Position numbers and translations under genes: made by a program. The notes below the pieces were generated by a model that had not been told where the DNA came from, did not search any database, and saw only the letters and a list, made by a program, of their open reading frames with translations. From assembly GCF_001687605.2 (NCBI RefSeq), contig NZ_CP016539.2:2820501-2884500 (forward strand): a stretch of 64,000 nucleotides of DNA. The letters are read 5' to 3'. How positions within the stretch are numbered: position 1 is the first letter of the stretch; each line of letters opens with the position of its first letter. Positions 1 to 55,298 of the stretch are shown here, in pieces. The stretch is from Planococcus plakortidis. Lineage in GTDB: Bacteria > Bacillota > Bacilli > Bacillales_A > Planococcaceae.

Positions 1-1335
1 ATTCTCCGTGTCGCCCGGTTTGACCTGCGGGCGAAACACCCCGGATTGCCGCAATGTCGGGCCGATCCCGAAACTGCCGCCTTTGAACAAGCCGAACGCT
101 TCTGCATCTTTCGGCGTTCGCACGTCCATCCATTCGATCGACTCGCGGATCCCCGGAAAAGACAGCGTCTCCATGCGCTCCAAAATACGCCCGATCCACT
201 CTTCATCATTTTTCCAATCGATTTCTGTGCCTGAAGGAACCGGCACAAGTACGTAAAGCACCGATTTCCCTTCAGGGGCAAGCGAATCGTCAATGACAGA
301 AGGATGGAATGTATAGAATGCCGGATTCTCCGTTTTATGCCCCCGGACAAATACGTCTTCCATATGTTCTTTATAATCATCACCGATAAAGAATTGGTGG
401 ACATTTACATCTTCATAAACTTTGTCCAATCCAAAATACAACAGCACACAACCTGAGGAAGGCGTAAATTCCTTCTGCTTTTTCGCTGGCGCCAATTGCT
501 GGATTCCCGGGAAATCCCCGTTATAGACAATTGCATCATAAGGCTCGACGCCTGACTCTGTTTCGACCGCTGTCGCACGGCCTTCTTCTTTCAAGATGCG
601 CTTGACGGGCGTGCCCAACCGGATTTCAACGCCCCGGCTGCGCAATTCCCGCTCCATGACGGGAATGATGCTTGCATAGCCGCCTTTCACATAATAGACG
701 CCGTGTTCATGTTCACTGAACGGCACGAGCGAGTACATGCCCGGCGCCCGGTATGGATCCCCGCCGATATAGAGGGCCTGCAGGGAGTAGGCCAGCTGTA
801 ACCGCTCATCCCTGAAATAGGACTCCATCAATTTATGCACAGATTGCTGGGGTTTCAGTTTCATCAAGTTGCGGATATTGCGGAAAGTCCAGAAATCCGC
901 TTTGCGGATGAAATCATGCTCCAGAAAAGCAGGCTTGCCGATATCGAAACGCTTCTTCCCTTCATCCATAAAGCGGATAAACCCTTCCCTATCATCCGGG
1001 AACTGCTCTTCGACTTCCTGTAATTGCCGCTCGCGCCCAGGGTATTTCGTATACACTTTGCCGTCTGTGAAACGGATTGTATAAAGCGGATCGCATAGTA
1101 ATAATTCGATGCTTTCCGGATCGATTCCTGCCTGGGCGAATAAATCGCGGAACATTTCCGGCAATAAGACGATCGTCGGGCCTTCATCGATCCGGAAGCC
1201 GTCCCGTTCCACAAACGCCATCCTGCCGCCAAGTTTATGCTCTTTTTCGTAAATCATGACTTCATAGCCGAGCTTCGTTAAATACAACGCGCCCATCAAT
1301 CCGCCGACACCGCCGCCGATCATCGCGATTCTCAT
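1..1335 (-). CDS. crtN: Diapophytoene desaturase CrtN (3' end outside window)
   Basis: FAD-dependent amine-oxidase-fold desaturase of the CrtI/CrtN family, expected to introduce double bonds into 4,4'-diapophytoene during C30 carotenoid synthesis at the membrane. The 445 visible codons are open from the ATG at 1335 to the window edge. The N-terminus has the dinucleotide-binding glycines (GGGVGG near residues 7-12) followed by the E-K...GGRM pattern. The stretch around residues 130-220 (FLE...RKADFW, then LYIGGDPYRAPGMYS) and the late GPTLRQSGVFRPQ resemble staphylococcal CrtN more than CrtP. The last part, with the usual HPG motif, lies outside. The start overlaps the stop of the upstream desaturase in an ATGA, so the two are translationally coupled. 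The substrate is inferred from the family. Confidence 0.8.
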   Translation of the reverse strand, partial: MRIAMIGGGVGGLMGALYLTKLGYEVMIYEKEHKLGGRMAFVERDGFRIDEGPTIVLLPEMFRDLFAQAGIDPESIELLLCDPLYTIRFTDGKVYTKYPGRERQLQEVEEQFPDDREGFIRFMDEGKKRFDIGKPAFLEHDFIRKADFWTFRNIRNLMKLKPQQSVHKLMESYFRDERLQLAYSLQALYIGGDPYRAPGMYSLVPFSEHEHGVYYVKGGYASIIPVMERELRSRGVEIRLGTPVKRILKEEGRATAVETESGVEPYDAIVYNGDFPGIQQLAPAKKQKEFTPSSGCVLLYFGLDKVYEDVNVHQFFIGDDYKEHMEDVFVRGHKTENPAFYTFHPSVIDDSLAPEGKSVLYVLVPVPSGTEIDWKNDEEWIGRILERMETLSFPGIRESIEWMDVRTPKDAEAFGLFKGGSFGIGPTLRQSGVFRPQVKPGDTEN

Positions 1336-2858
1336 GCAGTTCCCCTCGCTTTCGGAAGCGGGCCAATCGGGATTCCGGACCGCCCGTCTTCTTTCAGAAT
1401 GCCATTGACCGTGATGCGGGCGGATTCCAGGATGGTCGGCAAGCCGCTGCCGGGATGTGTCCCGCCCCCGACCAGCCAGCAATTGCCGAGCTCCTCGAAT
1501 TTATTGTGCGGGCGAAACACCATCATTTGCGATAATTGATGCCCTAAATTGAACGTGGCACCACGATAAACGGAGTAATCCGATTCCCAGCCGAACGGCG
1601 TCAGCATCTTCTCGACTTCGATATGGTCGCGCAGGTTCTTGAAATCGGTTTTTTCTTCAATGATGTCCAGCACCAATTCGCGGAAAGCTTCCTGTTCGTG
1701 CTCCCAACCGATATCGCTGAAATTATTCGGCACAGGTGCCAAAATATAAAGTGCCGATTTGCCTTCCGGAGCCAAGGTCGGATCCGTCACGCTGGCATTT
1801 TGGATATAGATCGACGGGTCCGCGGACAAAATGCGGGATTTCGTCATTTCTTCGACATTCTTCTGGTAATCTTTCGCAAAAACGATCGTGTGATGCGACA
1901 AATCGTATTTCTTATCCAGTCCCAAATAAAGCATGAACGTGGAACATGAATATTTTTTCTTGTCGAGCTTTTTCGGGGTGTATTTGTTCAAGATGCCTGG
2001 CTCTACCAGGTGGGTCATCACATGTGCAAAGTCGCCATTGATGACCACTTCATCCGCTGCTTCGCGGCTGCCGTCATACAAGTCGACGCCTTTTACATCG
2101 CGTCCCTCCACCCATAATTTCTGTACGCCTTTATTGAGATGGATGCGGCCGCCCATTTCCTTGACGGCTTTCGCCATCGCCGCAGACAATTGGTTGACAC
2201 CGCCGATCGGATGGTAGATACCGTAGGCATGTTCCATATAGGACAGGATGGTGAACGCGCCTGGGCATTCCCAGGGGGACATGCCGAGGTATTTCGACTG
2301 GAACGCAAACGCCATCTTCAAGCGCTCATCTTTGAAGTAGCGGGACAAGACATCATAAAGTGTCTTGCCTGCTTCAAGTTCCGGAAGCGCTTTGATCACT
2401 TTCGGCTGCATAAGGTCCGTCATGCGGTCCATTTTCGTCTGCAACAACGGTGATAGCGCTTCAAGCTTCTTGCCGGTTTCTTTCATGAAACGCGCATAAC
2501 CTTCCCCGTCGCCTTTGAAATTTTCATCAATTTGCTTGCGCATGGCTTCCGGGTCGCGCGTCATCACCAAATTCTGGTCTTCAAAGCGCAATTCATACAT
2601 CGGGTCCAATTCGACCGCTTCCATATAATCGTGGACATTGCGGCCGGTCGCCTCGAATAATTCCTCCACCAGATGAAGCATGCTCAAAAACGTCGGCCCT
2701 GTATCAAAAGTAAAATCACCCAATGTCAATGCAGCATTGCGCCCGCCGATGCGGTCATTTTTTTCATATATATCGACTTGGTATCCTTTGCTCGCCAAGA
2801 GCATTCCTGCTGCCAAGCCTCCTGGCCCCGCTCCTATAATAATCATTCGTTTTGCCAT
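1332..2858 (-). CDS. Phytoene desaturase family carotenoid enzyme (second CrtI/CrtN-type)
   Basis: A full-length 508-aa CrtI/CrtN family flavoprotein. The N-terminal IIGAGPGGLAAG binds FAD. EKNDRIGGRNAA follows, and the C-terminal GATFNLGHQLSQMMVFRPHN and GGGTHPGSGLPT motifs close the FAD site. It is the promoter-proximal gene of the visible carotenoid operon. Its TGA overlaps the ATG of the crtN-like gene. Two such paralogues in tandem are usual in C30 pathways, where one desaturates and the other desaturates further or oxidises the end groups. The sequence alone does not say which step this one does, so no symbol is given. The ATG at 2858 has GGGGGC 8 nt upstream. The promoter region carries the tandem 11-bp repeats at 2889-2907. 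Confidence 0.85.
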   Translation of the reverse strand: MAKRMIIIGAGPGGLAAGMLLASKGYQVDIYEKNDRIGGRNAALTLGDFTFDTGPTFLSMLHLVEELFEATGRNVHDYMEAVELDPMYELRFEDQNLVMTRDPEAMRKQIDENFKGDGEGYARFMKETGKKLEALSPLLQTKMDRMTDLMQPKVIKALPELEAGKTLYDVLSRYFKDERLKMAFAFQSKYLGMSPWECPGAFTILSYMEHAYGIYHPIGGVNQLSAAMAKAVKEMGGRIHLNKGVQKLWVEGRDVKGVDLYDGSREAADEVVINGDFAHVMTHLVEPGILNKYTPKKLDKKKYSCSTFMLYLGLDKKYDLSHHTIVFAKDYQKNVEEMTKSRILSADPSIYIQNASVTDPTLAPEGKSALYILAPVPNNFSDIGWEHEQEAFRELVLDIIEEKTDFKNLRDHIEVEKMLTPFGWESDYSVYRGATFNLGHQLSQMMVFRPHNKFEELGNCWLVGGGTHPGSGLPTILESARITVNGILKEDGRSGIPIGPLPKARGTA

Positions 2859-2888
2859 TGCGTAAGCCCCCGTTTCGCTTCTTAAAAG

Positions 2889-2907
2889 TTATACAATATC
2901 TATACAA
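2889..2907 (-). promoter_or_regulatory. Putative LitR/CarH-type operator of the carotenoid operon
   Basis: On the minus strand the sequence TTGTATAGATA is followed directly by TTGTATAACTT: two direct repeats with an exact 11-bp period, about 30-50 bp before the first carotenoid gene. A weaker third unit (GTATATAC) lies one more period upstream, at 2911-2918. The same tandem TTGTATAA repeat precedes the B12-binding MerR gene (44456) and the RND gene (53634). CarH-type regulators are known to bind tandem 11-bp direct repeats that overlap promoters. The assignment to this regulator is inference. Confidence 0.6.
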
Positions 2908-3160
2908 ATAGTATATACGTCTCTTCCCTAAAAGACTAATTATTTAACCTTTTTATGGTGCTTGTTTTTTAATTCGTGGGATGCAATGAGTTTTGTCGGT
3001 GCTTTCGGGGAATCGCTTCTTGGATCCGGATATAGTGAGGGGTTGCTTGTGGAATTGTTTTTGCGCTTGGAATGAAGCTTCATTTACCTATTCGCCGCCT
3101 GGCTTTGGGTTGGCCTCTTGCCGTAAGCCAATGCAATGGCGAAAGGAAGTTGAGCCATTT

Positions 3161-13113: not shown

Positions 13114-16100
13114 TTACTTGCCAGCCGAAGCCATTTTGCTTTCTTCGAATGCGGCCATTTCAGCATCGAATTTCGCCATGCCGCTATCCTGCAGCTTGCT
13201 GATGCGCTCGTTGATCTTCAAATAGGCTTTCGGAATGACGCGGACGAATTTGGCAGAAAGAATCTCCCAATGGTCCAATACACGTTTGCCGTTCAGGCTT
13301 CCTGTATAGCGGACATGGTTTTCAATCATCTCTTTCAATTCCGCGATTTCAACAGGATCTGCAAGCGGCTGCATATGGACCATTTCAGCGTTGCAGCGTG
13401 CACTGAATGTCTCTTCCTCATCAAGGACATAGGCGACCCCGCCAGACATGCCGGCCGCGAAGTTCTTGCCGGTATCCCCAAGAATGACGACGCGCCCGCC
13501 GGTCATATATTCACAGCCATGATCGCCGACGCCTTCGACGACAATCTTGGCGCCCGAATTTCTGACGGCGAAACGCTCGCCTGCCATGCCGTGGATATAC
13601 GCTTCCCCGGCTGATGCCCCGTAGAACGACACGTTGCCGATGATGATGTTCTTCTCAGGAAGGAATGTCGAATCCACGGCCGGCTTAACAATAATCTTGC
13701 CGCCCGATAGCCCTTTCCCGACAAAGTCGTTGGAGTCGCCGATCAATTTCAGCGTCATGCCTTTTGGAATGAAAGCACCAAAACTTTGCCCTGCAGAGCC
13801 TTGGAAATTGAATGTGATCGTGTCCTCCGGCAAGCCTTCCGCCCCGTACTTACGGGAGATGGCACTGCCGATGATCGTTCCGGTCGCGCGGTGGATGTTG
13901 CGGATGGCCGTCGATACTTCGACAGGTTCCCCTGTTTCAATCGCATTGCGGCAGCGCGGCAGGAGCTCCTGCACATCCAAGGTATGCTTCAATCCGTGGT
14001 CTTGCTTGACCGTCGCATAGCGGCCGACTTTTTCTGGCAGGTCCGGCTGATAGAGAAGCTGCGTCAAATCCAGCCCCTCCGCTTTCCAATGCTTGATCGC
14101 TGTATTCGTTTCGAGCACATCGGTGCGCCCGATCATTTCATTGATCGTGCGGAAGCCAAGCTCCGCCATCAGCTCGCGCGCTTCCATGGCGATAAAGCGC
14201 ATGAAGTTCGCGACGTGATCTGCTTCGCCTGTGTACTTTTTGCGCAGTTCCGGGTTTTGCGTCGCAATCCCGACCGGGCATGTATCCAAATGGCAGACGC
14301 GCATCATGACGCATCCGAGGACGACGAGCGGCGCGGTTGAGAAGCCATATTCTTCTGCCCCGAGAAGCGCTGCCGTGACGACATCGCGTCCGGTCATCAT
14401 CTTGCCGTCCGTTTCGACGACGATGCGGTCGCGCAGGCCATTCAAGAGCAGCGTCTGATGCGTTTCGGCAAGGCCAATTTCCCATGGCAAACCGGTATGC
14501 TTCAAGCTCGTTTTCGGAGCAGCGCCCGTGCCGCCGTCATAACCGCTGATCAAGACAAGATCCGCACGGCCTTTCGCAACGCCTGCTGCGATTGTGCCGA
14601 CACCGACTGCTGACACCAATTTCACGCTGATGCGCGCACGCGGATTGGCGTTTTTCAAGTTGAAGATCAGCTCCGCTAAATCCTCGATCGAATAGATGTC
14701 GTGGTGTGGCGGCGGTGAAATCAATTCAACGCCGGTCGTCGAACCGCGCACTTCCGCAATCCACGGATAGACTTTCTTGCCTGGCAAATGGCCGCCTTCT
14801 CCAGGCTTCGCCCCTTGTGCGACTTTAATCTGGATTTCATCCGCATTGACCAGATAATGGCTTGTGACACCGAAGCGCCCGGATGCGACTTGCTTGATGG
14901 CGCTTCTTCGGCTGTCGCCGTTGTCGTCCGGAATGAAGCGTGACACTTCTTCGCCGCCTTCACCGGAGTTGCTGCGGCCGCCGATTTTATTCATCGCGAT
15001 TGCCAATGCTTCGTGGGCTTCTTTACTGATCGACCCATAAGACATCGCGCCGGTCTTGAAGCGTGCGCAGATCTCCTCGACCGTTTCGACTTCTTCGATC
15101 GGCACCGGCGTGCGTTCCTTGAATTTCAATAAGCCGCGCAATGACTGGAGATTGGCTTTTTCATCCGTCAACAGTTTCGAGTACTTGCGGAATGTATCGT
15201 AATTGTTCGTCCGGCACGCCTGTTGAAGCGTGTGGATCGTCATCGGGTTGTATTGATGGTCTTCGCCGTTTTCACGGTATTGGTATTCATCGCCTGATTC
15301 CAGTGCCGGATCTGCCCCTTCGCGTTCCGGATAAGCAGACGCGTGGCGCAGCAGCACTTCCTTAGCGATGATATCGATTCCGATGCCGCCAAGGCGCGAT
15401 GAGGTGCGCGTGAAGTATTTATCGATAACGTCCATGCGGATCCCGATCGCTTCGAAAATCTGCGCGCCCCGGTAACTTTGTATGGTGGATATCCCCATTT
15501 TAGACAATATCTTGATGATTCCATCTGTAACAGCTTGCACGTAGCTCGCTTCGGCTTGTTCGACATTCATGCCGTGGATGTCGTCTTTCGCCACCAGATC
15601 TTCGATCGATTCGAATGCCAGATAAGGGTTGATCCCTTCCGCACCGTACCCGATCAGCATCGCAAAATGATGTACTTCACGCGGTTCCGCAGACTCGAGC
15701 AGGATGCTCATGCGCGTCCGCGTGCCTTTGCGGATCAAGTGATGATGAAGGCCGGATACCGCTAGCAATGCAGGGATCGCCGCATGTTCCTTGTCAACGC
15801 CCCGGTCGGATAGGATGACGAGTGTCGCGCCTTGTTCGATGGCCTTGTCCGCTTCCGCAAATACCGCTTCCAAGCGGGCTTCCATCGCTTCTGCGCCTCC
15901 ATCCGCTTTAAACAGGATCGGCAAAGTGACAGCCTTGAATTCCGGCAAGTTCTGCTGGCGCAGTCTTTCAAGCTCCGCATTCAACAGTACCGGCGTTTCG
16001 AGTCGGATATGGCGGGCGCTTTCCGGTTTCGGATCCACCAAATTGCCTTCTGCGCCGATTGTCGTCCGCGCAGCCGTGATGATCTGCTCGCGGATGGCGT

Positions 16101-17697
16101 CGATCGGCGGGTTGGTGACTTGTGCAAACAATTGCTTGAAATAGTTATACAAAAGCTGCGGTTTTTTCGACAGGACCGCAAGCGGCGAATCATACCCCAT
16201 CGAGCCGACCGGATCTTTCCCGTCGGATGCCAGCGGTTTGATGATTTTCTGGACTTCTTCCTGTGTATAGCCGAAAGCGAGCTGTTGCTTCAACAAGCCT
16301 TCGCCATTTGGGTGCATAGCTTCTTTCGGTTCCGGCAAATCACCCAAATCGAGCAAGTTATTTTCGACCCAGTCTTTATAAGGAAGCTCGGATGCAATCT
16401 GCATCTTGATTTCGTCATCCGGGATGATCTTGCCGGCTTCGAGGTCGACCAAGAGCATCTTCCCTGGGCGCAGGCGGTCCTTATAGATGATGTCATCGGA
16501 AAAGATGTCGAGTGCGCCGACTTCCGAGCCGAGCACGATCATGCCGCTTTTTGTAATATAATAGCGCGCCGGGCGCAGGCCATTGCGGTCGAGACACGCT
16601 GCAATCTGGCGGCCGTCGGTAAATACGAGTGCTGCCGGCCCGTCCCATGGCTCCATGAGCGTACTGTGGTATTCGTAGAAATCGCGTTTTTTCTTATTGA
16701 TCGATGTATCGTTGACCCATGGCTCCGGCACCATCATCATCGCCGTATGCGCCAGCGAACGGCCTGATAGGTGGAGGAATTCGAAGCAATTGTCGAACAT
16801 CGACGAATCGCTTCCGGTTTCATCGATGACCGGCAGGACTTTTTGCAGGTCCTGGTCATTGAAATAAGGGGATTCACAGGCAAGCTGGCGGGCTCTCATC
16901 CAGTTAACGTTTCCGCGAAGCGTATTGAATTCGCCGTTATGGATGGAGTAGCGGTTCGGGTGGGAACGCTGCCAGCTCGGGAAGGTATTCGTACTGAACC
17001 GTGAGTGGACGAGTGCCAACGCCGATTTGAATTCGGGATGGTTGAGGTCGATATAGAATGAATCCAGCTGTTCCGGGATGAGCATGCCTTTATAGACGAT
17101 CGTGCCGGCAGACAAGCTGCTGAAATAGACATCTTTGAACTCTTCCTGGCCGCCCATTTCCTGCTCGATGCGCTTGCGGATAATATACAAACGGCGCTCC
17201 AGATCCATGCGTGTCTCGAGATCCGCTGATGCGCCTATGAAGATTTGGCGAATGACCGGCTTGGTTTTCGCCGCGACATTCCCGACAAACGAATCGTTGA
17301 CGGGCACAGGTCGCCAGCCGAGTGCTTGTTGCCCTTCTTCTTCGACGATGCGCTGGATGATGTCCTTCGCTTTCATCCGGAGATCGTAATCCTGAGGCAT
17401 GAAGATCATGCCGATGCCGTACTTTCCTTCATCCGGCAGCGTGATTCCTTCTTTTTCACATTGCTTCAGGAAAAAGCGGTGCGGGATTTGCGTCAAAATG
17501 CCGGCGCCGTCCCCTGTACTCGTATCGGATGATTGGCCGCCCCGGTGCTCCAAGTTACAGAGGATATTCACTGCGTTCTGGACGATATTGTGGGATTTTC
17601 TTCCGTCTATATTAGCGATCATCCCGATGCCGCAAGCTTCATGCTCCTGGTCGGGATGATACAGTCCTTGTGCGATTGGATACTCTTTCTTTCTCAA
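13114..17697 (-). CDS. gltB: Glutamate synthase (NADPH) large subunit
   Basis: A 1,527-aa glutamate synthase alpha subunit. The N-terminal class II amidotransferase domain has its nucleophile Cys22 (EHEACGIG) exposed after removal of a short propeptide. A central domain follows, then the FMN/2-oxoglutarate synthase barrel ([17 protein letters not shown]), the 3Fe-4S cysteines ([15 protein letters not shown]) and the C-terminal GXGXG beta-helix ([21 protein letters not shown]). It releases ammonia from glutamine and channels it to 2-oxoglutarate. I start at TTG 17697 because AAGGAGG stands 8 nt upstream; the earlier ATG at 17721 overlaps that site. An upstream promoter and a perfect cre site suggest carbon control. 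Known as gltA in Bacillus subtilis. The usual divergent gltC is absent. Confidence 0.97.
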
Positions 17698-17742
17698 TAA
17701 AACCGCCTCCTTTTTACGCATTCATTGTCGTAATGTTTTGAT

Positions 17743-17772
17743 AGTATATCATATAATTGAATATATATACAA
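17743..17772 (-). promoter_or_regulatory. Sigma-A promoter of gltB-gltD
   Basis: On the minus strand TTGTAT, an 18-bp spacer and TATACT lie about 45 bp before the start codon, in a very AT-rich stretch. Confidence 0.6.
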
Positions 17773-17834
17773 ATTAGATTAGTTAGAAAATTAATTCATG
17801 CATGAAGATTCATTGACATATCGACACTTTTTCT

Positions 17835-44435: not shown

Positions 44436-44464
44436 TTTACGCTGGGGATAGTTGGTTGTATAAT
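44436..44464 (+). promoter_or_regulatory. Sigma-A promoter of the LitR/CarH-like gene
   Basis: TTTACG, a 17-bp spacer and a perfect TATAAT. The -10 lies inside the first operator repeat. Confidence 0.65.
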
Positions 44465-44477
44465 CTTTGTATAACAA
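44456..44477 (+). promoter_or_regulatory. Putative autoregulatory LitR/CarH-type operator
   Basis: TTGTATAATCT followed directly by TTGTATAACAA: two direct repeats with an 11-bp period overlapping the -10 and the likely transcription start. The same motif occurs before the carotenoid genes and the RND gene. Confidence 0.65.
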
Positions 44478-44502: not shown

Positions 44503-45399
44503 ATGTACAATATCAAAGCTGCTGCCAAAATACTCGATATGCCAAAGGTGACCATTCGCTCTTGGGAGACGCGCTATAACGCCATCACGCCTGCGCGCAC
44601 GGAATCGGGACATCGGCTGTATTCCGACCAAAACCTGGAAGATTTGAAATGGCTGAAAATCCAAGTCCAGGAAAACGGCATGAAGATCAGCGAAGCCGTA
44701 AAGCAATTGCACGCTTCAAGAAAACAGTTCTATCACCCTGAAGCCACCGATTCCACAGAACCGATTGAGTATGCCCAACAAATTGAAGAACTGTATCAAG
44801 CCGCTGTTGAGATAGACATTGACCGTTTCAATTACTTGCTCGATCTGAAGTTCTCACTGTTTCACCACCAGATTGTGTTCTTCCAGATCATCGCGCCGCT
44901 TATGGTCCGGATTGGCGCTGAATGGGAAGATGGGCAAATCAGCGTTGCGCATGAACATATGATCACCAATATCATCCAGCAGCGCTTCAACCAGTTTTTC
45001 CGTGTCTTCCCGGTCGCGCCGCATCTCCCGAAAGTGCTGGCCCTCAGCCCAAGCGGCGAACACCATCAACTTGGCCTGCTGCTGTTCTCGCTCTTCCTGC
45101 GTGAAAACGGCTTTCATGTTGTCTACACAGGCCCGGATACGCCGATTGACGGCTTGGCAGAAATGGTGGCTAAACAGGATTTCCAGCTCGTGTGCATGTC
45201 TGTCACCACGCCCAAAAGCCGGCCCGTTGCAGAACAATATATCAAAGAACTTTCTGCAGCGATCCCGAATCTACACTTCCTGCTCGGCGGCCAGGGCATC
45301 GACTGCAATGACGAAAAGGTTAACCGCTATTGCATCGGCACCACGCTTGAATCCTGGCAGCAATGGCTCGACGGTTTCAAAGCCACCCGCACGTCTTGA
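44503..45399 (+). CDS. MerR-family regulator with cobalamin-binding domain (LitR/CarH-like photoreceptor)
   Basis: 298 aa. An N-terminal MerR helix-turn-helix (MYNIKAAAKILDMPKVTIRS, ESGHRLYSDQNLEDLKWLK) is followed by a four-helix B12-cap with WEDGQISVAHEHMITNII (the W-X9-EH motif of CarH), and a C-terminal Rossmann B12-binding domain with the E-X-H-X-X-G motif in SGEHHQLGLLLF, then VYTGPDTPIDGLAEMV. In CarH/LitR proteins adenosylcobalamin makes a tetramer that binds DNA in the dark, and light breaks it and frees the promoter. All needed residues are present. The ATG at 44503 is preceded by GAAGG; the promoter and operator lie just upstream. Likely targets here: itself, the carotenoid operon and the RND pump. 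Confidence 0.88.
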   Translation: MYNIKAAAKILDMPKVTIRSWETRYNAITPARTESGHRLYSDQNLEDLKWLKIQVQENGMKISEAVKQLHASRKQFYHPEATDSTEPIEYAQQIEELYQAAVEIDIDRFNYLLDLKFSLFHHQIVFFQIIAPLMVRIGAEWEDGQISVAHEHMITNIIQQRFNQFFRVFPVAPHLPKVLALSPSGEHHQLGLLLFSLFLRENGFHVVYTGPDTPIDGLAEMVAKQDFQLVCMSVTTPKSRPVAEQYIKELSAAIPNLHFLLGGQGIDCNDEKVNRYCIGTTLESWQQWLDGFKATRTS

Positions 45400-48981: not shown

Positions 48982-50394
48982 TTATGCGTCGCCGCTTTCC
49001 TGCTTTTTCGGATTTTTCATGAAGAACGCCAGCACGATGCCGATTGCGCTTAATCCCCCTGTCACCATGAAGGAGATATTGACCCCGCGGATCAGCCCTT
49101 CCACGCCGTATCGGGCTGGGTCAAGCGCCGCACTGGTCATGATCGTCACAAGTAGCGCCGTCCCAATCGAGCCCGATACTTGGCGCATCGTATTGCTCAT
49201 CGCCGTGCCATGCGGAATAAGGCGGTCCGGCAATTGATTGAGCCCCGCTGTCGTAACAGGCATCATGACAAGCGCAACGCCGAACATGCGGATGGCGTGC
49301 ATGACGGTCAAATAAACAAATGCCGTCTCGGCCGTCAGCACCGTAAACTGGAAAGTCGAACCTGTTACGATCGACAGCCCCGCAACCGCCAGCCACTTGC
49401 CCCCGACTTTATCGAAAATACGCCCGGCAATCGGGTTCATGAGTCCCATGATGACCGCTCCCGGCAGCAGCATGATCCCGGATTCAAGCGCCGTAAACCC
49501 ATGCATGTCCTGCATATAGATCGGCAAGATCGTGGCACTGCCGATCATCGTGACAAACACGATAATGCTGAGGATCGTCGATAAAGTAAACAAGCCGTAT
49601 TTAAAGACGCGGAATTCCAGGATCGGCTGCTTCAGTTTTCCCTGGCGGCGGATGAAGAACCATAAAGCGACAGCCCCGACACCGATCGATGCGATGACCG
49701 AAGTGCTGCCCCATCCCGCTGACCCGGCGCTCGAAAAGCCATACAGCAAGCCGCCGAACCCTATAGTCGACAGCATGATCGACAGAATGTCGATCTTCGG
49801 GAAAGTCCGTTCCGTCACATTGCGCAGGAAGAAATACGCCAGCGCCAAATCGAGGATCGCGATCGGTATGACGATGTAGAACAAAGACCGCCACGGGTAT
49901 TGCCCGACCAAATAACCGGATAAAGTCGGGCCGATTGCCGGCGCGAAGGAAATGATCAAGCCGAACATGCCCATCGCCTGGCCGCGTTTTTCGACCGGAA
50001 AGATGACGAACAAAACCGTTTGGGCGAGCGGCATCATGATGCCGGCCCCCGATGCCTGGACGATGCGCCCGAGCATCAAGGTCGCAAATCCCGGTGCAAG
50101 CGCACAGATGATCGTCCCGGCCGCGAACAAGCCCATCGCCACAAAAAATAAATGGCGCGTCGTGTATTTATTGATCAAGAAAGCGGTAATCGGGATCATG
50201 ACGCCGTTGACGAGCATGAACACCGTCGTCAGCCATTGCGCGGTATTGGCGGTGATATCGAGATCTTCCATGATGTGCGGCAAAGCGGTGGCGAGCAGCG
50301 TCTGGTTGAGTATCGCCACAAACACGCCGGCCATCAATACCGCGAGCAGCGGTTTCCTATGCCGCGCTTCTAATTCCACTTTCCCCAAGCGCAT
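48982..50394 (-). CDS. DHA2 (EmrB/QacA) MFS multidrug transporter
   Basis: 470 aa, 14 membrane segments, drug:H+ antiporter 2 family. Family marks are FVAILNQTLLATALPHIMED (motif D1), QWLTTVFMLVNGVMIPI, GRIVQASGAGIMMPLAQTVL and GPTLSGYLVGQYPWRSLFYI (motif C). The late block GTAMSNTMRQVSGSIGTALL is typical of EmrB/LmrB. The substrate is unknown. The ATG at 50394 has GGGGGAG directly before it. It lies downstream of the RND gene on the same strand, but a terminator stands between them. Confidence 0.9.
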   Translation of the reverse strand: MRLGKVELEARHRKPLLAVLMAGVFVAILNQTLLATALPHIMEDLDITANTAQWLTTVFMLVNGVMIPITAFLINKYTTRHLFFVAMGLFAAGTIICALAPGFATLMLGRIVQASGAGIMMPLAQTVLFVIFPVEKRGQAMGMFGLIISFAPAIGPTLSGYLVGQYPWRSLFYIVIPIAILDLALAYFFLRNVTERTFPKIDILSIMLSTIGFGGLLYGFSSAGSAGWGSTSVIASIGVGAVALWFFIRRQGKLKQPILEFRVFKYGLFTLSTILSIIVFVTMIGSATILPIYMQDMHGFTALESGIMLLPGAVIMGLMNPIAGRIFDKVGGKWLAVAGLSIVTGSTFQFTVLTAETAFVYLTVMHAIRMFGVALVMMPVTTAGLNQLPDRLIPHGTAMSNTMRQVSGSIGTALLVTIMTSAALDPARYGVEGLIRGVNISFMVTGGLSAIGIVLAFFMKNPKKQESGDA

Positions 50395-50471: not shown

Positions 50472-50506
50472 AAAAAAGCTGCAAAGTCCGAAGACCCTGC
50501 AGCTTT
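50472..50506 (-). terminator. Terminator of the RND gene
   Basis: An AAAGCTGCAGGGTC/GACTTTGCAGCTTT stem is followed on the minus strand by seven T. It should uncouple the RND and DHA2 genes. Confidence 0.85.
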
Positions 50507-50509
50507 CCA

Positions 50510-53500
50510 TCAGGCGGTTTGTTTCTTCTCCTTGCGCACGATGCGATGGAATAAAAGATACAGCGCCGGAATCATGACCAATGTGAAAATCCCGGAGAAC
50601 GCAAGCCCCGCAATGATCGTCACGGCCAGCGGTTCAAACAATGGGTCGCCGGAAAACGCGACCGGCAAGAGCGCCACAATTGAAGTCAAGGACGTCAGCA
50701 CGATCGGCTTGATGCGCGCATACCCTGATTCGATGATCGCTTCTTCGATGTTGAAGTCTCCCGTCAGGCGGCGTTCTTCCACAAAGTCGATGAGCACGAC
50801 CGCATTCCGGACGACAATCCCCGTCAAGGAGACGATCCCCATGACGCCAAGGAAGCTGAGCGGCGTCTGCGTCAGGAACAAGCCGAGGATCGCGCCCGAG
50901 ATGCCGAGATAAACGGCAATCAACACAAGGAACGGCAAGCCGAACGATTTGAACTGGAACGCGATGACCAAATAAACCAGCAGCAGCACGACCAGGAACA
51001 GGATGCCGATTTCAGCGAAGAATGCTTCCTGGTCGGAATTCTCGCCGCCAGTTGACAGTTCATAGCCAGACGGCAAATCCGCACGTGCATTGTCTACGAC
51101 TTCAAGCATCTGCGCTTCGAAATCATCGGCTTCACCGAACGCGCGGAGCGTGATGGCGCGGTCCCCTGATTTATGCGGCACTTGTGCAAGCGCCGTCGTT
51201 TCTTCTGCGGTGAGCAATTCGTCCAGGCCGACCAGTTCAGGCGGCCCTGGCTGTGCGGCAGCAGGCGGCCCTGCTTCACCGCCGGTTTCCGCTTGTTCAC
51301 CGCTTGCCGTGGATGCCGGCAAACTGAATTCAGCAAGGTCGATCGGTTCGCCTTCCGTGATGCCTGCTTGCTTCAGGACGACTTCATATGGCGTCTGCCC
51401 TTCATAAAGCGTATAGAGCGGGACGCCTTGCGTCAGCAGCTGCAATTGATTGGTGACCGTCGACAAGGCGATGCCGTTGTCTTCAAGCGTTTCCCGCTCC
51501 GGTACGTATTCAATCGCCGGCACAGAAGCGCCGAGGTTATCGGTGACGACAGTCGCACCGTTTGCGAGCATCTCTTCTTCGAGCGTGTCACGCAGCGCCG
51601 CGAGTTCATCGATATCCTCGCCCGTCGCCGTCACGGTCACCGGTGCGCCCACTGGCGGCCCCTGGACGATGGTATCAAGGAAAATTTCCGCATCCGGATA
51701 GCGTTCGCGAAGTTCCGGTTCCCATTTGTCGATAAAGGCGGAGGCGGAAGTCGCTTCACGGTCGATACGGAATGCCACTTGGCCCGTATTGGCGCCGGTA
51801 TTGTCCATCGATGAAGCAAACAGGTTCGGCAATCCTTCTCCTGTGAAGACGGCGGTTTCATTCACATCGCCATCTTCCTGCGCCACTTCCTCGGTCACTT
51901 CACGGATGAACGCATCGGTTTCTTCGATGGTCGTTCCTTCCGCAAGGCGCACGTTCATCGTCACTTCCTCGCGGTCCGCTTCCGGGAAGAATTCGAATGG
52001 CGTGAACAAGGCGAGTGACAGCAGTGCGGTCGCAATGGCCAATCCGCCGATCCCAGTCAGCCAAGGGCGTTTCAACACGCCTTTCAGCACTTTTCCGGAA
52101 TACACTTGCGCAAGTTTTTCGAGCGGCTTGCCAAGGAAGCCCGGCGTGTCGGAAATTTTGCGCTTTTTGCGTTTCGTGCGCAAGTATTGCATCATCGGCA
52201 CAAGCGTAATCGACAGTACCGTCGAAGCCAGGATGGTCGTAATCAAAATACTCGGCAGCGCTTTGATGAATGCGCCGTTTCCGCCGGATAGCAATAACAG
52301 CGGAGAGAACGTCACGACAATCGCCAGACTCGACGACACGATCGATGGGTAGACTTCCCGGACGCCATTGATGGCCCCTGCCATTGCGTGATCGCCAAGC
52401 TTATAGCGGCGCTGGATATTATCGTTGACGACGATGCTGTCGTCGACCAAAATCCCGATCGCGATAATCAAGCCGATAACGGAAATCTGGTTCAAATCGA
52501 CACCGAGCGCCGGAATCGGGATGAGCCCGATCAGGACGGAAGCGAGAACGGTCAGCGCCACGGCAAACGCGCCGTATAGCGTAAGCCCCGCAGTCGTAAC
52601 GACCAAGACCGCAAGCACCGCGATCAATAGCGAAATGTAAAGCGAGCTGAAAATCTCGTTGACGTTTTCAGCCTGGGACTCATAGCGTTCAGCCGAGATG
52701 CCTGCAGGCAAATCTTCATTGAACCCTTCGATCACTTCGCTGACACGGTCATCGACAGAAGGCACGTCCTGGCCAGTCTGCAAGAAGACCGTATAGGAAA
52801 CCGCCGGCTCGCCTTCGAATGTGACGATATCTTCAGCCGGCATTTCAGCCAATTCGACCGACGCCACATCAGCGAGCGGCACCGCTGCCTGGCCGACCTG
52901 CAGCTCACGCAGCTTTTCGATGCCTTCGCTTTGCTGCACGGTCAAGAGGAATTGCTGTTCGCCGTCACTGTGGGTACCAAGGGACAGCGGCTGATTCGCT
53001 TGCTGCAGGCTTTCAAGCACTTCAAAAGGCTGCAATTGATTTTCTGCCAGCGCATCCCCATCGAGCTCAATGACCACCTGCTCACCGTTCAAGCCTTTCA
53101 CTTGGGTTCCGGCGACGCCGGACACCGCTTCGACTTCATCCGAGAGATCGGCGAGCGGCCTTTCGAGTTCGGCAAGTTCCGCTTCGTCCCCGTAGAACAT
53201 ATAGGAAACCAACGGGAATGTCAGGTCCAGCTTTTCGACGCTTGTTTCCTGCGCCTGTTCCGGGAAACTGCCGGCTGCGCGCTGTGCCTGTTGCTGGATC
53301 GTATTGATCAAGCCATCAGGCTCTACGCCGTCTTCAATTTCCAATGTGATGATGGAAGCCGAATTCGCTGAAATGGAATCCATCGACGCGATGCCGTCAA
53401 TGCTCTGCAATTCCCTTTCAATCGGATTCGTGATGCTCGTTTCCACTTCTTCCGGCTCGGCGCCCGGCAAGATCGTGGAGACCAGCACAAGGCCCGGAGG

Positions 53501-53611
53501 CGTTTCGGGAATTTCACGCTGAGGCAAAGTCAGGAATGTATAGACCCCGACCAGCATGAGAATCAGGATCAAGAAGATGAATAACTTACTGCGTTCAAGT
53601 ATGTACTGCAT
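50510..53611 (-). CDS. RND family efflux transporter (AcrB/MMPL-like)
   Basis: 1,033 aa, complete RND architecture: an N-terminal span, a large porter loop, spans 2-6 with the proton-relay motif GILVDDSIVVNDNIQRRY in span 4, a second porter loop (FPEADREEVTMNVRLAEGTT) and spans 8-12 (GIVSLTGIVVRNAVVLIDFV). It is a proton-driven exporter of hydrophobic molecules, of the SwrC/YerP type found in Firmicutes without an outer-membrane partner. The second loop has a Gln/Gly/Pro/Ala-rich insertion around residue 770. The ATG at 53611 follows GGAGGGAGC. The promoter carries tandem TTGTATAACTA repeats shared with the carotenoid and photoreceptor genes, so a link to carotenoid or photo-oxidative stress export is likely by inference. 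Confidence 0.92.
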   Translation of the reverse strand: MQYILERSKLFIFLILILMLVGVYTFLTLPQREIPETPPGLVLVSTILPGAEPEEVETSITNPIERELQSIDGIASMDSISANSASIITLEIEDGVEPDGLINTIQQQAQRAAGSFPEQAQETSVEKLDLTFPLVSYMFYGDEAELAELERPLADLSDEVEAVSGVAGTQVKGLNGEQVVIELDGDALAENQLQPFEVLESLQQANQPLSLGTHSDGEQQFLLTVQQSEGIEKLRELQVGQAAVPLADVASVELAEMPAEDIVTFEGEPAVSYTVFLQTGQDVPSVDDRVSEVIEGFNEDLPAGISAERYESQAENVNEIFSSLYISLLIAVLAVLVVTTAGLTLYGAFAVALTVLASVLIGLIPIPALGVDLNQISVIGLIIAIGILVDDSIVVNDNIQRRYKLGDHAMAGAINGVREVYPSIVSSSLAIVVTFSPLLLLSGGNGAFIKALPSILITTILASTVLSITLVPMMQYLRTKRKKRKISDTPGFLGKPLEKLAQVYSGKVLKGVLKRPWLTGIGGLAIATALLSLALFTPFEFFPEADREEVTMNVRLAEGTTIEETDAFIREVTEEVAQEDGDVNETAVFTGEGLPNLFASSMDNTGANTGQVAFRIDREATSASAFIDKWEPELRERYPDAEIFLDTIVQGPPVGAPVTVTATGEDIDELAALRDTLEEEMLANGATVVTDNLGASVPAIEYVPERETLEDNGIALSTVTNQLQLLTQGVPLYTLYEGQTPYEVVLKQAGITEGEPIDLAEFSLPASTASGEQAETGGEAGPPAAAQPGPPELVGLDELLTAEETTALAQVPHKSGDRAITLRAFGEADDFEAQMLEVVDNARADLPSGYELSTGGENSDQEAFFAEIGILFLVVLLLVYLVIAFQFKSFGLPFLVLIAVYLGISGAILGLFLTQTPLSFLGVMGIVSLTGIVVRNAVVLIDFVEERRLTGDFNIEEAIIESGYARIKPIVLTSLTSIVALLPVAFSGDPLFEPLAVTIIAGLAFSGIFTLVMIPALYLLFHRIVRKEKKQTA

Positions 53612-53633
53612 AAGGATTAGCTCCCTCCGATTG

Positions 53634-53655
53634 TTGTATAACTATTGTATAACTA
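53634..53655. promoter_or_regulatory. Putative LitR/CarH-type operator of the RND gene
   Basis: TTGTATAACTA occurs twice in exact tandem (53634-53644 and 53645-53655), an 11-bp period, on the plus strand. On the gene strand it covers TATACA/TACAAT -10 candidates, with TTGGCG about 16-18 bp upstream. The repeat matches those at 2889 and 44456. Confidence 0.65.
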
Positions 53656-53685
53656 CAAATCGGAAAGCGCCAATTTAAACGCTCG

Positions 53686-53717: not shown

Positions 53718-53963
53718 TTAAACTTTTTCAGGGCGCCGCTGCTTGAAGAAGTAAGCGCCGATGAACAGCAAGAGCGGTGGCAAGATGCTCAATTTGAACA
53801 CCCAGCTGTCATCTCCCATGAAAATCAGGCCCATCGGCAAAAGTGATGCAAGCCCTCCCCAAAACAGCGCTTTCCACGATCGTTTCCAAACCCCGTACAA
53901 GCCGAGCAGCAATGCGGCAATCACCAGCGACCACAATAAGATCCCCATCAACAGGAAATCCAT
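53718..53963 (-). CDS. Small membrane protein of unknown function (81 aa)
   Basis: 81 aa with two or three hydrophobic segments: LLMGILLWSLVIAALLLGLY, ALFWGGLASLLPMGLIFMG and LSILPPLLLFIGAYFF, and a basic C-terminus (KQRRPEKV). I do not recognise a family. The ATG at 53963 is set by GGAGG 9 nt upstream; an ATG two codons earlier is too close to that site. It precedes the RND gene on the same strand, but a terminator and the RND promoter lie between. Confidence 0.7.
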   Translation of the reverse strand: MDFLLMGILLWSLVIAALLLGLYGVWKRSWKALFWGGLASLLPMGLIFMGDDSWVFKLSILPPLLLFIGAYFFKQRRPEKV

Positions 53964-54071
53964 CTCCATGCGCCTCCGTTCGGTTTTATACTTTAGTTAT
54001 ACCCCTTTTTTTAATAAAAATCATTCATCAAGAATACTTTTTATGCATTTTTATATAGGTATCTAGAAATG

Positions 54072-54116: not shown

Positions 54117-55298
54117 TTATAAGTTTTCGAAAAACAGGCGCAACACGTCTGCCCCGCCGATGAATGTGCCGAGCGAACTGCCGAGGTTGGTCAATACGAT
54201 GACGAGTAGGACGCGCGTCACTTTATTGTCCCAAAAGCCTTTGACCGTGAACACGTCTTTCGACAAGGTATCGAAATCCCCGACATTCGGCCGGCGGATA
54301 AACGCTTGTGTCAGCCCCGAAAACCAGCCGGCCGCAACGAGCGGATTGAGCGAGGAAATCGGCGCAGCGACAAAGGCGGTGAGGATCGCCAGCGGATGGC
54401 CGAACGCGACCGCGGCCCCGATTGCGGCAAGCGTGCCGTTCCACAGGATCCAGCTGACGGTTTGGTCCAAACCAGCCGCCGGGTTTGCATAGAAGGTGTA
54501 CGCGATAATGGACAAAATAATCGCCGGGATGGCCCAGCCGATGATCTTCGGCCATTTCGACTTCTTCGGCACTTCATTGAGCGCCTTTAAATCCTGCTCT
54601 TCGTGGATTTCGCGGGTAATGCCTGGAATGTGCGCGGCACCAAGCACCGCGACGACCTTGTCGCCGGGTGCTTCTTTGATCTTCTGCGCCAAATATTGGT
54701 CGCGTTCATCGATGAGCGGCTTCTTGATGCGGGGGAACGCTTTAGTGAAATCATCCATCACCGCGTTCAATGTATCCTGCTGCTTCATCTTCTCAAGTTC
54801 CTCTTCGGAAATCGATTCCTTGCTGAAAATGCTGAAGAACACGGAGGAAATGAGCTGGACCTTGCCCATCAGCCCGATATTGCCCCAGATACGCGAAAAC
54901 GTCACTTGGATATTGCGGTCGGCCAGGACCAGTTCCGCTCCGGTCTCTTGCGCGGAATGGATGCCCTGGATCATTTCCGAACCGGGCTTAATGCCGAACT
55001 GATCGGCCAGGCGGTTCTGGAACGAGGAAATGGCCAAGTTCATCAACAACAGGCTCGCTTTCTTGTCCTTGATGATCTTGAAGATATCGGTTTCTTTCCA
55101 TTTCTTGTCCTGCATGACCGAATCATAGCGCTGGGCGTCGAGTTCGATGCACACCGAATCCGGCCGTTCGCGCTCGACGACTTCCTTCACTTGCTCTGCG
55201 CTCCGTTTGGACACATGTGCTGTGCCGATCAAGATAAATTGTTTGCCGCCCACTTCGAGACGGGTGATATTGTCTTCCGTCATTATCTCTTCTGTCAT
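54117..55298 (-). CDS. TraB/PrgY family membrane protein
   Basis: 393 aa. The N-terminal 230 residues hold the TraB/GumN-type signature: LIGTAHVSKRSAEQV (GTAH), VCIELDAQRYDSV (E-L-D) and VVAVLGAAHIPGITREI. The last 160 residues have four or five membrane segments (PKIIGWAIPAIILSIIAY to VLLVIVLTNLGSSLGTFIGG). TraB proteins in enterococci shut down or degrade pheromone; related Tiki proteins are metalloproteases that use the same GX2H and Glu motifs. The target here is unknown. The ATG at 55298 has AAGGAAG 8 nt upstream. It is monocistronic. Confidence 0.88.
   Translation of the reverse strand: MTEEIMTEDNITRLEVGGKQFILIGTAHVSKRSAEQVKEVVERERPDSVCIELDAQRYDSVMQDKKWKETDIFKIIKDKKASLLLMNLAISSFQNRLADQFGIKPGSEMIQGIHSAQETGAELVLADRNIQVTFSRIWGNIGLMGKVQLISSVFFSIFSKESISEEELEKMKQQDTLNAVMDDFTKAFPRIKKPLIDERDQYLAQKIKEAPGDKVVAVLGAAHIPGITREIHEEQDLKALNEVPKKSKWPKIIGWAIPAIILSIIAYTFYANPAAGLDQTVSWILWNGTLAAIGAAVAFGHPLAILTAFVAAPISSLNPLVAAGWFSGLTQAFIRRPNVGDFDTLSKDVFTVKGFWDNKVTRVLLVIVLTNLGSSLGTFIGGADVLRLFFENL

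Follow-up and report, generated by a model that had tools for sequence, protein, structure and literature searches.

The RND permease gene of the Planococcus plakortidis window (the whole 64,000-nucleotide stretch analyzed here) carries an exact tandem 11-bp repeat on its promoter and, judging from sequence comparison, very probably belongs to the regulon of the CarH-type regulator encoded in the same window. This assignment is based on the fit of the repeat to the published CarH unit, its sharing with the promoters of carH and of carotenoid (crt) genes, its conservation at all 39 pump orthologues found in the genus, and its absence from the pump orthologues of Sporosarcina. We consider it highly likely that the tandem is a CarH operator, at which the pump gene would be repressed in the dark and released in the light, and that the pump would be co-induced with carH and the crt genes and export a hydrophobic compound.

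A predicted tandem operator at the pump promoter

The unit TTGTATAACTA occurs as two exact, adjoining copies at 53634–53644 and 53645–53655, confirming the repeat reported in a preliminary description of this DNA. On the pump strand (minus), the operator at 53634–53655 reads TAGTTATACAA TAGTTATACAA. The spacer between the tandem and the ATG of the pump gene (53611, minus strand) is 22 bases long (53612–53633) and includes a Shine-Dalgarno-like sequence, GGAGGGAG, read from the minus strand at 53621–53628. A consensus scan placed the promoter-like hexamers TTGGCG-18-TACAAT at 53644–53673 (minus strand), and the second of them, TACAAT (53649–53644), falls within repeat 1 except for one base, the first of repeat 2. 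It should be mentioned that promoter-like sites of this region, found by consensus scan only, were not in significant excess (five, compared with 3.3 expected from shuffles). CarH operators have been described as tandem 11-bp repeats of the form nnnnTnnACAn that overlap −35 or −10 elements (PMC9304148). TAGTTATACAA matches this unit, as do both units at each of the pump, carH, and crt sites.

With up to two mismatches, TTGTATAACTA had 16 matches in the window compared with 5.11 (sd 2.26) in shuffles, and none of 100 window shuffles reached 16. The one other exact copy in the window is a single unit at 16142–16152, within the glutamate synthase coding sequence (13114–17721). Genome-wide, the exact 22-mer of the pump promoter occurs once in 3.26 Mb, and the sole additional match with up to three mismatches is the promoter of the crt gene of the window. 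A chance origin of the pump repeat is thus ruled out by the shuffles, by its uniqueness in the genome, and by the genus-wide count of sites given below (138 versus 3). Single sites elsewhere in the window (e.g., 17762–17790) were set aside because they lack the 11-bp tandem structure.

Conservation of the predicted operator within the genus

The preliminary description had placed the pump in a photoreceptor regulon; we inspected the orthologous pump promoters on this point, and every one of them kept the repeats. A pump orthologue (at least 73% identity) was found in 39 of the 46 genus genomes; that of P. maitriensis is 97% identical to the window pump, and the window genome falls in the Planococcus group. 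The operator was present at 39/39 orthologues, with no mismatch in 34, one in three, and two in two. Both TnnACA cores were intact at 37 of these 39 promoters, and the cores of the two repeats were equally conserved. Mean column conservation was 0.92 in the operator and 0.57 and 0.59 in the flanks, in an ungapped alignment anchored on the best operator match, a procedure that biases the comparison towards the operator columns. Among named relatives, 19 of 19 Planococcus/Planomicrobium loci carried the operator, and 0 of 6 Sporosarcina loci did.

Counted against the same pump-type pattern, the carH promoters (46/46) had zero, one, two, and three mismatches in 14, 12, 9, and 11 cases, respectively. 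The promoters of the window-type crt gene (40 of 41; that of G175 was excluded because its 5' end is missing, and the crt matches are partial in G159, G169, and G175) had one, two, and three mismatches in 16, 16, and 8 cases. The pump site is therefore the strictest of the three, which, together with the match to nnnnTnnACAn, lends further support to the predicted regulon membership.

We also considered whether the repeat might be a plain promoter, with the TATACAAT core serving as a −10 element that was duplicated by chance and inherited. TACAAT is indeed the second hexamer in the consensus scan and the repeats are A+T-rich, but repeat 2 lies 11 bp downstream of the −10-like hexamer with its core equally conserved across the 39 orthologues, and neither the genus-wide excess of sites nor the lack of the repeat at all 14 Sporosarcina promoters fits such an origin. 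We regard this explanation as very improbable, and rejected a plain −10 duplication on the conserved core of repeat 2. A double role of repeat 1 as a −10 element may nevertheless add to its conservation.

Distribution of sites across the genus

We searched the 46 genus genomes for the pattern TTATACAAnnnTTATACAA with up to one mismatch and found 138 sites, compared with 3 for the reversed pattern. The reversed pattern was used as the control, and random 220-bp windows were discarded as background since their pool contained real promoter sites; the counts are those of the one-mismatch search, as at two mismatches the reversed pattern gave up to 11 sites per genome. With a site assigned to a gene when it lay at most 250 bp upstream, 37 sites preceded the pump, 26 carH, 16 the window-type crt gene, and at least 11 another crt desaturase, so that at least 90 of the 138 were at pump, carH, or crt promoters. 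The remaining 48 were unassigned; some of them are probably crt sites, the count of other crt desaturases being a lower bound. Orientation relative to the gene was uniform within each class, namely same-strand for the pump (37/37) and the other crt desaturases (11/11, at least 11), and opposite for carH (26/26) and the window-type crt gene (16/16). The pump accounted for 34 of the 50 perfect sites and carH for 14, with 2 lying elsewhere.

Eight of the 48 remaining sites were inspected (L195–L202). One had crtM, two had a DUF4397 gene, and one had an ArsC-like gene about 350 bp off; four had no evident link to light, lying near PgpA-like, sulfatase-like, STAS, and FtsX-like genes. Five genomes (G088, G097, G105, G112, G163) share the site TGATACAATTTTTATACAA, which in G088 stands before the PgpA-like gene (L196).

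The CarH-type regulator and its predicted operator

The regulator gene (44503–45399, plus strand) encodes a MerR helix-turn-helix domain followed by two B12-binding domains according to Pfam. The protein has the motifs W-x9-EH and ExHxxG; W-x9-EH and E/DxHxxG are the motifs expected of CarH-type regulators. Its score against the NCBIfam CarH equivalog was 122.8 bits, below the cut-off of 400, so we call it CarH-type and not a certified equivalog. Its own operator, TTGTATAATCT TTGTATAACAA at 44456–44477 (plus strand), is an 11-bp tandem in the opposite orientation relative to the gene, about 9 kb from the pump operator. A carH orthologue was present in 46/46 genus genomes, being split over two frames in G174.

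The crtI-family carotenoid desaturase/oxygenase gene of the window (1332–2858, minus strand; assigned by profile matches) is a candidate member of the same regulon. Its operator (2886–2918, minus strand) consists of two tandem repeats, TTGTATAGATA TTGTATAACTT (2886–2907), and a degenerate third unit (2908–2918).

Several observations count against the CarH reading. The pump site has two repeats, compared with the three of Thermus and the four of B. megaterium (PMC9304148), and the orientation relative to the gene differs between pump, carH, and crt sites. Two or three mismatches to the pump-type pattern were found at 20 of 46 carH and 24 of 40 crt promoters, the regulator falls short of the NCBIfam cut-off, and some of the inspected sites lack an evident link to light. 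Concerning repeat number, the same source reports that one or two repeats with degenerate flanks are bound by CarH in myxobacteria (PMC9304148).

Another protein might bind the repeat and control the pump, carH, and crt genes together, CarH being merely one of its targets. In favour of this, light-induced crt genes elsewhere are under other regulators such as CrtR, and the binding of CarH here is itself a prediction. Against it, the unit matches the published CarH operator (PMC9304148), carH is second after the pump among the perfect sites (14/50), as autoregulation predicts, and two Sporosarcina genomes without a CarH match also lack the repeat at their pump gene. In addition, one genus genome (G167, L203), which has neither the pump nor the window-type crt gene, encodes a second MerR-B12 regulator whose gene diverges from crt genes across an intergenic tandem site. 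We give this alternative a small chance, and control by CarH remains the preferred explanation.

The pump gene and its surroundings

The pump gene (50510–53611, minus strand) encodes a full-length, 1033-aa RND permease of the ACR_tran family (PF00873, 1.1e-153, residues 3–1022), assigned by Pfam, by its match to a relative of solved structure, and by orthologue alignment. The best solved relative was MexK (7.2e-71), with a match along the full length. Residues D390–D391 are invariant across 23 aligned orthologues and align with the LVDD of MexK; an Asp pair in TM4 forms the proton relay of RND permeases. AlphaFold predicted the pump structure with low confidence (mean pLDDT 54.9, pTM 0.27). 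The preliminary description had called it the only RND pump in the window, which agrees with the subset of window ORFs that was scanned. The genome has three further RND matches to it, two of which are among those listed, at full length and 27–29% identity.

A terminator-like hairpin with a T run (50473–50508, minus strand; pattern scan only) lies directly 3' of the pump gene. Terminator-like sites in the region (10, compared with 6.3 expected from shuffles) showed no significant excess, this one having the longest stem. Because promoter-like hexamers precede the gene and the hairpin follows its stop codon, the sequence suggests that it is probably monocistronic. The next gene downstream, encoding a DHA2-type MFS transporter (48982–50394, minus strand), lies beyond the hairpin, which makes co-transcription with the pump unlikely. 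In a Pfam scan of the neighbours (the MFS gene, an ORF at 53718–53969, and a TraB family gene at 54117–55298) no adaptor (membrane fusion) gene, as expected next to the pump in a tripartite efflux system, was found. The 83-residue ORF at 53718–53969, upstream of the pump, was without a Pfam match, and a counterpart occupies this position at many named loci of the genus.

Joint absences of the pump and the crt gene

Seven genus genomes lack the pump. In five of these (G007, G130, G166, G167, G170) the window-type crt gene is missing as well, and no operator was found in the interval bounded by the genes that adjoin the pump in other genomes. The pump thus accompanied the crt gene in 39 of 41 genomes and occurred in 0 of 5 without it (Fisher 1.5e-5, a test that ignores kinship). 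In the CarH tree, four of the five genomes cluster in a single clade (0.994), and G166 branches with G153, G156, and G160 (0.995), the deeper nodes being poorly supported. This distribution reads as two joint absences of pump and crt within the genus. In G165, a decayed pump gene (L126:560-1567) has an operator weakened to two mismatches. In G160, the pump is gone without trace, and a one-mismatch operator is kept (L192:9017-9035) with the MFS gene now next to it.

Pump orthologues in Sporosarcina and other relatives

In a wider sample of 261 genomes from 19 genera, the matches listed were all from one family. Among them, the pump relatives outside the genus were 14 from Sporosarcina, at 68–72% identity, and four from another genus, at 32–34%. 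The operator was found at 0 of the 14 Sporosarcina orthologues (at least five mismatches at best, and no tandem TnnACA within 400 bp) and at neither of the two more distant relatives examined of the four (L027, L028). The two of the 14 pump-bearing Sporosarcina genomes that were searched for these genes, G076 and G116, gave no CarH match and no crt desaturase, the latter search returning just a 38-residue match in G116. At the level of genome content, carotenoid genes are not a prerequisite for having the pump, as its Sporosarcina orthologues demonstrate. Conversely, among the 16 sampled Sporosarcina-group genomes, the five with crt desaturases (G039, G094, G103, G134, G146) had no pump orthologue.

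In one Sporosarcina, the gene immediately upstream of the pump orthologue encodes UvdE, a UV-damage endonuclease (L155:8865-9830). A link between the pump and UV repair was dropped, since UvdE occurs at one of six named Sporosarcina loci and is absent from the other 24 named loci.

Possible substrates and purpose of the pump

The exported compound is probably hydrophobic, and a glyco-carotenoid or a photo-oxidised lipid is a sensible guess for it. Planococcus has been reported to make glucosylated C30 carotenoids, with a fatty-acid ester in one strain (PMC8502411, PMC8933910). It is conceivable, albeit rather unlikely, that the pump is the export arm of a C30 glyco-carotenoid light response and moves a glycosylated carotenoid ester or photo-oxidised membrane lipids across or out of the membrane; if so, a solitary Gram-positive RND pump would have a natural, light-dependent substrate. 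A carotenoid-only substrate is weakened by the finding that the pump and crt desaturases never occur together in the 16 Sporosarcina-group genomes.

We lean somewhat towards a different purpose, which is compatible with a CarH operator: the operator would be real, and the pump a general-purpose exporter, for compounds that are hydrophobic or damaged, which was recruited to the light response and stands outside carotenoid metabolism. The two Sporosarcina genomes with the pump and with neither crt desaturase nor CarH point to this, as do the five Sporosarcina-group genomes with crt desaturases and no pump. In Corynebacterium, inactivation of an RND gene left carotenoid production unchanged, according to a statement of the authors' unpublished data (PMC6739363). 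On the other hand, within the genus the pump is found only alongside the window-type crt gene, by the kinship-blind comparison given above, the five genomes that lack both lie on two branches of the CarH tree, and the two crt-bearing genomes without the pump show decay (G165) or deletion (G160).

Proposed mechanism and comparison with known systems

We infer CarH binding, dark repression, proton drive, and any substrate; the steps of the mechanism are drawn from the operator anatomy and the published CarH mechanism. In the dark, AdoB12-bound CarH would occupy both 11-bp repeats, over the −10-like element and the expected transcription start, and block RNA polymerase. In the light, breakage of the Co–C bond of AdoB12 would release CarH, and the pump gene would be transcribed, probably as a single gene, along with carH and the C30-carotenoid (crt) genes. 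As its contribution to the light response, the encoded RND permease would use proton drive to clear a hydrophobic compound from the membrane.

The proposed system resembles the CarH/LitR regulons of Thermus thermophilus, Bacillus megaterium, and myxobacteria in having a MerR-B12 regulator, tandem nnnnTnnACAn units, at the pump over a promoter-like hexamer, and predicted control of crt genes. It differs in that the targets described in the CarH literature consulted are carotenoid genes, whereas in this genus the strictest operator of the set, with two repeats, belongs to a lone RND permease. CarH is known as a pigment-gene switch; an exporter as its strictest genus-wide target would, if true, mean that the light response includes membrane transport. 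A solitary Gram-positive RND pump would also gain an inducer (light) and a defined regulator, and its substrate would become searchable.

SwrC/YerP of Bacillus subtilis is a known RND permease of a Gram-positive bacterium. The pump is like the HAE-type RND permeases (MexK, MdtB, AcrB) in its full-length match to MexK and the aligned Asp pair, and unlike them in its Gram-positive host and in the lack of an adaptor among the scanned neighbours.

The closest parallel in regulation is the CrtR regulon of Corynebacterium glutamicum (cg0722 / BBD29_03565), in which a Gram-positive RND gene is likewise co-regulated with light-induced carotenoid genes. There, the RND gene (labelled mmpl) lies within the light-regulated crt operon under the MarR-type CrtR (PMC5401885, PMC6739363), and cg0722 was reported to be up 13-fold (LB) and 22-fold (CgXII) in the crtR deletion (PMC5401885); here, the gene is of the AcrB/HAE type and stands alone, about 9 kb from carH. 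The Planococcus and Corynebacterium cases together suggest that RND genes linked to carotenoid genes came under light control on more than one occasion, through regulators unrelated to each other.

The preliminary description had held that the coupling of a Gram-positive RND pump to a B12 photoreceptor was undescribed. This stands for CarH, as we found no CarH-controlled RND pump in our searches of open-access literature, but not for light-regulated RND genes at large, one being known under CrtR in Corynebacterium and relatives. What would be new here is an RND pump under predicted CarH-type control, CarH–crt regulons and the CrtR–RND pairing being already known. The main text of a Planococcus transcriptome paper (PMC13044350) makes no mention of RND, efflux, MerR, AcrB, or transporter, which we regard as neutral.

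Further sites in the P. plakortidis genome

A looser pattern gave seven sites in the P. plakortidis genome compared with three for the reversed control, so that single extra sites are weak there. The extra sites precede a CruF-like carotenoid gene, a second crt desaturase, a DUF4397 gene, and an ArsC/Spx-like gene. The site at the ArsC/Spx-like gene (L008, near 2124173) is a tandem with three mismatches to the looser pattern, and near-identical sites occur in G151 and G154. A DUF4397 gene with a tandem was found in three genomes, namely P. plakortidis (L005, near 892862), where a sortase gene follows it, G167 (L200), and G026 (L201), where the site is perfect and the gene has an LPXTG-type anchor match. 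From its recurrent tandem, the DUF4397 gene is likely to be a second non-pigment member of the light regulon.
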